Below are positions 37,740-54,731 of a stretch of 57,835 nucleotides of DNA, piece after piece (the stretch's first letter is position 1; every line of letters starts with the position of its first letter). The translations under genes and the position numbers were made by a program. The stretch comes from Candidatus Krumholzibacteriia bacterium. GTDB lineage: Bacteria; Krumholzibacteriota; Krumholzibacteriia; JAJRXK01. Where the stretch lies: contig JAOZPE010000004.1 of the NCBI GenBank assembly GCA_029932915.1, positions 71,873 through 129,707 of the forward strand. The letters run 5' to 3'. The notes under the pieces were generated by a model, which was given only the letters and a program-made list of their open reading frames with translations, made no database searches and was not told where the DNA came from.

Positions 37740-39446
37740 TCAGAACTCGTTGATCAGGGCGAGGTGGATCAGACCCTCCGAGAAACCCACCGTGCCCGGG
37801 AAACCCAGACTCAGATCGATGCGGCCGAAGGGGGCCGGCGTCCGGATGCCCATGCCCAGGCCGCGGATCCAGGCCTCCTGGGCGCGCAGCCGGCCATCCA
37901 ACTCGACGGTGTCCCGGACGTATCCCAGGTCGTAGAAGGCGTAGACGTTGCCACCCCGGGCCGCTCCCAGCACGAATTCGAGACTGCCGTGGGAGACCAT
38001 CTCCCCGTGCCGCTCGTCCTCCCGATGGCCCCGCACCGTGGTGGCTCCCCCGATGTAGAACTGTTCGGACAACGGCAGCGGCAGATCCCCGGTGGTGACC
38101 GACGCCCACCGCGCCCGTGTCTGCACCGCCACCCGCGGTCCAATGGCCACCCCCAGGTGCAGATCGACATCGACGATGGTCTGCTGCGAATTGGCCGCCG
38201 CCGGCTCGGGAGGAACCGGATCGCGGACGGTCTGGGAGACCTTCGCCCACTCGAAGCGGCTCTTGAAGCGGCCGAAGGGACCCGACCGGCCCTCGGGCCG
38301 GATCGATCCGAGGCGGAGCTTCAGCAGCAACCTCCGCCGGATGCGCTCGATCCCCTGGTCGCCGACGAAGGTGGTGCGGTCGATGCCGCCACCGGCCTCG
38401 ACGTCGTTCACCCCGTGCCAGGGCAGACGCAGGGAGAGATCACCGAGGATGGTGTCGAAGATTCCCTCCTGATGCCGCTGTCCGGCGGCCACCCTCAGGT
38501 CGAAGGGCGAGTGGAAGACCAGCGGCTCCAGGTACGAGATGTCCAGGGTCCGGCGGGATCGTCCGTCGTCCAGATACCGCAGGGAGAGCTGCCGCGCGGT
38601 GCCGAAGAGGTCGAGCAGGATCAGATCGACGTTTCCGAAGACCCGGCTTCCCCTGTCGTCCTGGCCACCGGTCATTCCCAGGGCAGCCGAGATGCGCCCG
38701 CTGCTCTGCGACTGCTGCACCTTCAGCAGGACGTCGACCTTCGACAGGTCGGCCCCACTTAGGAGGGGTTCGGCCTCCACCACCCGCTGGACGATCTGAC
38801 GCGCCTCCAGGCGCTGGCGCGCCATCTCCAGACTCCGTTCGCTCCACACCTGGCCTTCCCGCAGCCCGGACAGCCGGGCCAGGATCTCCGGACGGGTATG
38901 GGTGGCTCCCTCCACCCGGATCTTCTCCACCGACGCCTGCACGCCCGGCAGGAGCAGGAGGTCGAGCTCGACCCCACCCTCCTGCGGACGGGGCTCGATC
39001 CGGCGCACGCTGAGGCTGGCGAAGGGATACCCCCCGTCCCCAAGGCGAGCCAGTCCGCGGGAACAATCGGCCTGCCACCGGCCGGGCCGGTACAGCGCAC
39101 CTTCCACGATCCCGGAGGCCTCGGTGAAGCGCGCCCACTGCAGACTGTCCGCTCCCCCCCGGCTGAGGTGGAGGATCCGGGCCCGCGGCCCCGCATCGAG
39201 AACCAGGGTGTCCGCCCCCGCGCTGAGCGCCACGCGAGCCCACAGCCAGCCTTCCTCGCGCAGTCCTTCCCATACCGCCCGCGCCCATTCGCGCGGCGGA
39301 CGAAGCCCCGGCGGCTGGTTCATCACCCGCGCCGCCACCGCTGCCACCACCGAATCCGCCGAGAGCACCGGCCTCGGCACGGGCTCTTCGGCCGCCCGGA
39401 CGGGGCCGGCCAATGCGAGCAGCAGAAGGAACGAGATCGTGCGCAT
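37740..39446 (-). CDS. Omp85/BamA-superfamily outer-membrane protein
   Basis: 568 residues. Signal peptide ([15 protein letters not shown]), two or three POTRA-like periplasmic domains (e.g. [43 protein letters not shown]), and a C-terminal 16-strand-type barrel ending in [10 protein letters not shown]. The conserved loop-6 motif appears as [12 protein letters not shown], with VRGH (His474) where most Omp85 proteins have VRGF/Y. It is shorter than BamA and may be a dedicated assembly or translocation pore (TamA-like). Its ATG overlaps the stop of the 1178-residue barrel gene by 1 bp (TGATG), so the two are translationally coupled. Confidence 0.85.
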
Positions 39447-53600: not shown

Positions 53601-54731
53601 GTCCTGGACGATGCCGTAGCGCATCGCCTTGGCGTCCTCCCGGTGGACACGCTCCCGACAGGTGGACACCTCCCCGTCGACAGACGGTGGAGCACCGCTC
53701 TCCTCCATGCGCAGGGGCGGGTCGTCGAAGGAGGTATCGTCCTCGCCCACCCTCTCCCAGCACAACCACAGGGCCAGGCGATCGGCGTACTCGTGCTCGA
53801 TGTGGTCGAAGGACGCGGCCGAGGGATCGTGCCGGTCGAGCCAGGTGTCGATCCCCCCGTTGTAGAACAGGAACTCGTCTCCCGGCCCCATGCCCACCAG
53901 CGGCTGCGCCGCCCACACGAGCAGGGGACGCTCGACGAGTCCGTAATCGGACTCCCAGCTCTGCTCCCCCACGTTCGGGTCGATCGACTGCAGCAGATGC
54001 GGGGAAGCGAAGAGACGCAGGGTCGCCGGATCGATCGACGATGCCTCCGACAGCAACACGGCCTCGAGATCCTCGAAGCGCACGCGGTACAGCCCGGTCT
54101 CGGAGATCTCCAGGCGCAACCAGCGCGGAGAGCGGGCAAAGGTGTCCTCCTGGCCGGGCGCCCGTTTGGCCGCGCTCTCCAGCTGTGCCACCTGGGCCCG
54201 GCGGAAGGCCCGGGCCGCTTCGGGGTTGATCAGGCCCGCGGTGGGAAGGTGGCGGGCCGGATCCATCGCCCAGTCGGCGGGCGGAGGCAGGAATTCCCCC
54301 GCCAGGGCCGGGTGTTCGAAGTCCAGACGCAGGCCGCGCAGACGCAGGGGACGGCCCTGCTGGTCGAGGTAGTGCAGACGGACGGTGGCCACCACGCGCC
54401 ATACCCCGCGTACCCGCACCGGAGGACCCAGTTCGACCAGTTCGCGGTCGCTGGAGACCTGGGGCAGCCCCTCCCGCCGGGCGGCGGGTTCCGAGCGCCG
54501 CTCGTCCACCCTGAGCTGCGGCAAGCGGTTCGAGGGCAAGGCGATCACCAGCCGAGCGGTCTGTGCCTCGTTGGATCCCGCTTCCCAACGTAGATGCACC
54601 ACGGTGCGGTCCGGACCCTGCTCGAGCACCTGTATCCGCGGACGTGCAAGAGCACCGGACACACCGCCGAGGAGAACCAACGCAACGATGGCTCCCACCC
54701 CAAGACGGCAGGTCACGGATACGGCTCTCAT
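50664..54731 (-). CDS. porU: PorU-like type IX secretion C25 cysteine sortase
   Basis: 1355 residues. Signal peptide (VGAIVALVLLGGVSGALA), a long N-terminal beta-rich region, then the gingipain-type C25 domain: YVLLVGDASRDYRSR, AIGRLPVANAAEARMV, catalytic His875 in IVHYIGHGS, catalytic Cys909 in LMMALSCDVS, and YVLFGDPALSL. The His-Cys distance (34 residues) is like that of gingipains. The C-terminus is a FlgD/Ig-like sorting domain (IQIYSLDGRVIRRLKG...EWDGLDFRGDEIANGAYLYTV). PorU cleaves T9SS cargo domains and attaches the protein to the surface. The ATG at 54731 gives a clean signal peptide; no strong ribosome binding site. Confidence 0.87.
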   Translation of the reverse strand: MRAVSVTCRLGVGAIVALVLLGGVSGALARPRIQVLEQGPDRTVVHLRWEAGSNEAQTARLVIALPSNRLPQLRVDERRSEPAARREGLPQVSSDRELVELGPPVRVRGVWRVVATVRLHYLDQQGRPLRLRGLRLDFEHPALAGEFLPPPADWAMDPARHLPTAGLINPEAARAFRRAQVAQLESAAKRAPGQEDTFARSPRWLRLEISETGLYRVRFEDLEAVLLSEASSIDPATLRLFASPHLLQSIDPNVGEQSWESDYGLVERPLLVWAAQPLVGMGPGDEFLFYNGGIDTWLDRHDPSAASFDHIEHEYADRLALWLCWERVGEDDTSFDDPPLRMEESGAPPSVDGEVSTCRERVHREDAKAMRYGIVQDNWTQTAIPLQEGEAERLQWAADHVVDADGRLYVNPVTLWVSGTPRVQVLSNGHDLGTFTWSFNQQVWNSEPIRFGMSMPAPVEGLNEIQVVNRSTGTRIDLDLVDLSYRRRLFVRGGRLEWMIFPDEYTSPVGRTFVVGDDETASTGFEDGTVVLDTSDPLHPVRLTAVTVDGSGMTLRIETLARPNLHLAVYQPRGVRQPLALSLADPRHLRSEVFQQGGWDYVVVGPSELLDGVGDLADFHRMELDDGAGDPLVAPRVGVVDLQDVWDSFGYGVKEPAALRNFLKFSYLHEVAGESGRQTEYVLLVGDASRDYRSRLPSSIGEQERDRCPTYIQTHWPHSNSFYSRGGEKWVPFPSDDWLGAFDAPDSSNTEGLAPYDLAELAIGRLPVANAAEARMVARRLVEYQRSPADGTWRNDILLVCDDEVSLASGSTTESFHIDQGERLAEEYVPPVLDVNKLYLTEYPNPPGPRNKPAARAEMKRQWSAGKLIVHYIGHGSPKQMADEKVFLIEDVGTLTNEDRLPLMMALSCDVSIFDSPTEKSMSEQLVLHSGGGAIATIAATQVTFVGSNNSLTDELYEWLFPSDDPADTPPVGAVLRSARAGLGGSAFTDNNSRKYVLFGDPALSLAAPGLGLQVSGAFADSIQTGVLGNVAALTADGHPFSGRYRVRLEEARDHSGYSRVDNDTTIFHIDYVLDGASFFRGEGSVVGDTLRVEAPAPVALRPGPDGRVRILYSPDLDPHGMLSGYAEPVPVVLRATDSDDLDGPQIQLAFSSPSPVVIPGDTLVAVLSDPSGINVLGNSPASRINLDFDDSDFPLDVTSLFHLDDGRYDRGSLAYALPGDLDPGDHTMILSASDTRGNLSTATISFTLQAAGSLEIRDALAVPSPFSDATRFVVDLTDAAAVEIQIYSLDGRVIRRLKGVQPRRGVLVIEWDGLDFRGDEIANGAYLYTVRATFLQTSTQSLTLSRTGRVVKMR

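Follow-up and report, generated by a model that had tools for sequence, protein, structure and literature searches.

The barrel protein encoded in the window (the whole stretch of 57,835 nucleotides that was analysed, from a Krumholzibacteriia genome) is a member of a widespread outer-membrane family that has no name, is half the size of the T9SS export channel SprA, and is partly related to it. This family together with its fixed gene company is the new element of the locus. The barrel and its locus are very probably associated with the T9SS. On balance, we read the locus as the T9SS surface-attachment operon of Krumholzibacteriia, in which the barrel would be an accessory half-size SprA relative working with PorV and PorU. 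The original prediction had proposed an undescribed envelope system beside PorU-PorV. A conserved surface assembly or secretion module with T9SS sorting stands, but the gene run is itself the locus of PorU-PorV (T9SS), with a barrel related to SprA.

Gene Content of the Operon

The eight genes occupy positions 37740 to 54731, all on the minus strand, and are transcribed in the order PorU-PorV-M6-smallA-smallB-NHL-barrel-Omp85 (Table 1). The intergenic gaps are 77 bp (PorU-PorV), 62 bp (PorV-M6), 14 bp (M6-smallA), 2 bp (smallA-smallB), 6 bp (smallB-NHL), 14 bp (NHL-barrel), and -1 bp (barrel-Omp85); the coordinates and the tight spacing predicted for the last six genes (-1 to 14 bp) were confirmed. 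The signal peptides of the operon proteins were called by eye.

Table 1: Genes of the PorU-PorV operon in the window.
Product	Coordinates	Strand	Family match or other support
PorU, T9SS sortase, C25 peptidase	50664..54731	-	NF033707, Pfam C25
PorV-family outer-membrane carrier	49594..50586	-	NF033709, T9SS_OM_PorV
Secreted M6 metalloprotease: HEFGH motif, FG-GAP repeats, T9SS type A tail	45839..49531	-	
smallA, small envelope protein, PGLGE motif	44787..45824	-	Positionally conserved, smallB paralogue
smallB, small envelope protein, PGWSQ motif, sub-threshold DUF5683	43996..44784	-	
NHL beta-propeller, possible lipoprotein (APGC)	42997..43989	-	NHL E 6e-17
SprA-related barrel, 1178 aa, GTG start, ~38 predicted strands	39446..42982	-	
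Accessory Omp85, POTRA + barrel, 568 aa	37740..39446	-	Pfam Omp85 + POTRA

The PorU- and PorV-like genes expected directly upstream of the six-gene run both passed their family models. PorU matches NF033707 at 427.6 bits (E 8.6e-128, cut-off 420) and Pfam C25 at E 3e-73, and it retains the GHG and SC residues expected for the C25 catalytic pair. It is the sole full-length copy of its genome above the NF033707 cut-off; at most one PorU per genome exceeds this cut-off in 19 class genomes, and it is the operon copy in the window's genome and in the genomes compared by coordinates. PorV scores 189 bits against the PorV/PorQ family NF033709 (cut-off 90) and E 3e-33 against T9SS_OM_PorV. PorU and PorV are shared with the T9SS attachment complex (PorU, PorV, PorQ, PorZ) as the first genes of the operon, although the operon has no PorQ or PorZ match of its own and carries instead a propeller, the SprA-related barrel, an Omp85, and two small proteins. 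Contigs C77 and C12 of the window's genome, and relatives, encode several more large proteins of about 1450-1700 aa that match PorU/C25 in part.

The M6 protease, the NHL propeller, and the Omp85 protein each scored above the Pfam cut-off, as had been proposed. The type A tail of the M6 protease reaches 23.1 bits (cut-off 23), and its HEFxH motif is retained in 16 of the 18 class members. The trio of protein kinds PorU, PorV, and M6 recalls the PorU2, PorV2, and inactivated M6 of Bacteroidota (NCBIfam NF052323-NF052325), and the operon M6 matches the inactivated-M6 model of this set at E 1.3e-44; all scores against the set are nevertheless below cut-off, the operon M6 retains HEFGH, and the operon PorU passes the true PorU model. 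The Omp85 gene reaches 38 bits for Pfam Omp85 (cut-off 24) and 34 bits for POTRA (cut-off 21.3). It shares the POTRA plus Omp85 barrel design of BamA and TamA but is an accessory copy of 568 aa tied to the SprA-related barrel gene, with further Omp85 genes located elsewhere in the genome.

The profiles of smallA and smallB match each other at every locus compared, so the two proteins are paralogous as predicted. The DUF5683 likeness claimed for the pair did not hold at threshold: smallA matched no Pfam family, DUF5683 included, and smallB alone matched DUF5683 at 16.7 bits, below the Pfam cut-off of 26.7. The NHL gene, predicted to encode a lipid-anchored propeller, has the expected family match, but the lipobox cysteine is absent in several families of the class, and the label of lipoprotein may therefore fit only part of it. 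Elsewhere in the window (8074-25201) lies a Type IV pilus cluster with a secretin, PilM, a PilR/PilS-type regulator and kinase, and PilC- and PilB/PilT-type genes.

Conservation of the Gene Block

The barrel was found in 55 of the 58 class (Krumholzibacteriia) genomes and in all 40 of the high-quality ones, mostly as a single copy; fragmented genomes can yield it as two or three pieces. As far as the contigs permit, the gene order PorU-PorV-M6-A-B-NHL-barrel-Omp85 is retained in twenty wider loci drawn from seven families. M6 is absent from the block in family f6 and no recognisable NHL gene is present in family f4 (among L044, L045, and L047-L049), so these two genes are dispensable to the block. 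The full block was also found in Eisenbacteria (L096, L100, L108, and the related L124). Since the order recurs in seven class families and in Eisenbacteria, the arrangement is far beyond chance, and the genes stay together in relatives instead of being scattered. At one locus, L105 (8322-14860), the NHL-barrel-Omp85 trio stands alone with PorU and PorV not nearby, which suggests that these three genes may represent the ancestral unit. A subtilase-like protein with a C-terminal tail is encoded a few genes upstream of the trio in L105.

Relationship of the Barrel to SprA

The barrel scores only 15.1 bits against the SprA model TIGR04189 (cut-off 200) and has no SprA_N (PF14349) match, and single barrel sequences match the SprA model weakly (E 0.0024). 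Profile comparisons gave a firmer result. With hhalign, residues 302-438 of the barrel aligned with residues 640-758 of SprA (96.6%, E 5e-10), and an alignment restricted to the class gave a single collinear stretch of 274 columns (barrel 70-388, SprA 421-731, E 5e-9). All barrel-SprA profile alignments (107-274 columns) fall within the N-terminal third of SprA, and the controls (reversed SprA, the operon's own Omp85, and the operon's PorV) were silent. No SprA similarity was detectable in the rest of the barrel beyond about one third. As judged by these profiles, the barrel is clearly related to SprA over its N-terminal third. The same SprA-like domain occurs a second time in the barrel, as its N-terminal hairpin domain. 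At about residues 350-400 of the window protein (P0001), this hairpin domain also weakly resembles DUF2460 and the phage distal tail protein TIGR02217.

AlphaFold models of the window barrel (pLDDT 82.6, pTM 0.74) and of a Pedobacter homologue (pLDDT 86.7, pTM 0.74) have matching strand series: seven strands, a hairpin-domain insert, two strands, a second insert, and 29 strands, for a total of about 38 (range 36-40 in these predicted models). The count was lowered from 40 to about 38 as two strands split by a single residue are likely one bulged strand, and another strand is the last of the hairpin domain. The inserts are predicted after strands 7 and 9, the first being the SprA-like hairpin domain (about residues 327-400). 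SprA has 36 strands (PMC10994853), and its cap inserts follow strands 7 and 11 (PMC9127263). In Foldseek searches, SprA chains were the top three matches of the window model and the top four of the Pedobacter model, followed by BtuB and SusC, with LptD as one among many barrels. The TM-scores against SprA were low (0.21-0.29), and a global superposition on SprA was therefore not demonstrated. The models support a giant SprA-like barrel, short of a common fold over the full length.

The barrel resembles SprA/Sov (the T9SS translocon; TIGR04189, PF14349; structures 6h3i, 8gl8) as a predicted very large single-chain outer-membrane barrel with related N-terminal strands and a related hairpin domain; SprA is its top fold-search match and resides in the same genomes. 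The two differ in size (about 2300 aa and 36 strands for SprA, about 1150 aa and 38 predicted strands for the barrel), the barrel is below the family cut-off, and both coexist as separate single copies.

Distribution and Novelty of the Barrel Family

In a scan of named genomes, relatives that are full-length at about 1150 aa turned up in Bacteroidota (Pedobacter arcticus, Flavobacteriales, Bacteroidales, Cytophagales, and Chitinophagales), in Ignavibacteria, and in Balneolales, which rules out a family confined to Krumholzibacteriota. In these three groups the barrel is a lone gene, no neighbour being conserved across groups, and in Bacteroidota it does not adjoin PorU or PorV. A maximum-likelihood tree of the barrel tracks the phyla with one deep split, which points to an old, mostly vertical descent of the family; a recent transfer is not favoured by such a tree.

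The window barrel matched no family in Pfam or among curated models, and four of its relatives matched no NCBIfam family, the Pfam scan having covered the window protein alone. The barrel profile, run against PDB sequences, returned nothing credible, and a viral fold library gave beta-rich noise alone. The barrel family is neither named nor described in the literature searched on a T9SS in Krumholzibacteriota, PorU2, SprA paralogues, and 40-stranded barrels, which did not extend to subscription papers and preprints. To our knowledge, genetic screens for gliding or the T9SS in Bacteroidota have not brought up the barrel.

Association with the T9SS

No core translocon gene lies in the window; a genome-wide search found SprA as a separate gene of about 2313 aa on contig C95, and this rules out that the barrel is the SprA of the genome. 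In locus L134 (4507-14165), SprA adjoins two divergent genes that by eye resemble LptF/LptG permeases. The window's genome encodes SprA, PorU, and PorV as well as tailed cargo, with 51 proteins above the cut-off for a T9SS type A tail. SprA was detected in 58 of 58 class genomes, in 40 of 40 high-quality ones, and in all 34 of the barrel-bearing genomes tested outside the class. Among 149 Bacteroidia genomes, the barrel occurs in 127-128 of the 143 that carry SprA and in none of the six that do not (Fisher p about 5e-6, relatedness ignored). Within the sampled sets, the barrel family is found only in genomes that carry SprA. Since 15-16 SprA-positive Bacteroidia have no barrel, it is an accessory and not a core part of the T9SS.

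No PorL/M/N-type gene, also sought after the original prediction, turned up with the models used: the window's genome gave no GldM, and neither GldL nor GldN was above cut-off in any of the 19 class genomes. The GldN control was silent as well, so the absence of GldN is unproven. The window's genome and 18 relatives have the T9SS translocon, sortase, and tailed cargo with no detectable GldL, GldM (own genome), or GldN. Diverged forms of the motor genes are possible in Krumholzibacteriia, as is a T9SS that lacks the canonical motor in these 19 genomes.

Possible Roles of the Barrel

In Flavobacterium, PorV docks on the lateral opening of SprA and carries tailed cargo. In the surface-attachment operon that we favour, the barrel would be inserted by the Omp85 protein together with BAM and would retain the N-terminal strands of SprA and a SprA-like hairpin insert that would cap the pore on the outside. 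The barrel may offer PorV a second site for docking, or a second channel, where cargo would be handed over to PorU. The assembly would have the NHL propeller, smallA, and smallB as partners, and the M6 protease would be one of the tailed proteins delivered by this T9SS route. A channel or PorV-docking role of the barrel is plausible, though we lean slightly against it.

The barrel could also serve the attachment complex as a platform on the surface instead of a protein channel, by bringing in the lipopolysaccharide acceptor or by keeping PorU, PorV, and the propeller in place. This job is done in Porphyromonas by PorQ and PorZ. The barrel does have attachment enzymes (PorU, PorV) and a propeller as neighbours, SprA already supplies a channel, and LptD figures among the Foldseek matches, if as one of many barrels; we still consider a platform unlikely, as the sequence kinship of the barrel is with SprA and not with PorQ or LptD, and the operon holds no PorZ or LptD family match.

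Less probable again is that the barrel, Omp85, and propeller are a biogenesis aid that helps to fold or insert SprA and other very large barrels, with an indirect dependence on the T9SS. The strict nesting of the barrel within SprA-positive genomes and the constant presence of Omp85 beside it, even in L105, would fit such an aid, but some SprA-positive genomes are missing the barrel and no Omp85 adjoins it in Bacteroidota. We know of no assembly factor of barrel-Omp85-propeller design.

It is very improbable that the genes form an envelope or transport system of their own, or a TonB-dependent-like importer, and are no more than neighbours of PorU-PorV. The isolated trio of L105 and the rank of BtuB and SusC next in Foldseek are in favour of such a system, but no plug domain was found, and the barrel is related in sequence to SprA, nested in SprA-positive genomes, and part of a class-wide operon that includes PorU and PorV. 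SprA, the 51 tailed proteins, and the genome's sole full PorU place the locus inside the T9SS.

In its widest form, the attachment-operon reading would make the barrel a second, unnamed SprA-type channel in T9SS bacteria of several phyla, with about 38 strands and possibly the largest known single-chain barrel, that docks PorV and works with PorU, and would give Krumholzibacteriota a T9SS with no canonical rotary motor. We regard this as possible but doubtful. If it is so, the barrel would be a missing T9SS part that, although it has no family name, is present in about 89% of the Bacteroidia with SprA and in all well-sequenced genomes of Krumholzibacteriia. The T9SS has been dissected chiefly in two Bacteroidota species. 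The apparent lack of GldL, GldM, and GldN raises the question of the energy source of the T9SS outside Bacteroidota, and the Krumholzibacteriota operon, which links the barrel to PorU, PorV, Omp85, and a propeller, points to where to look.
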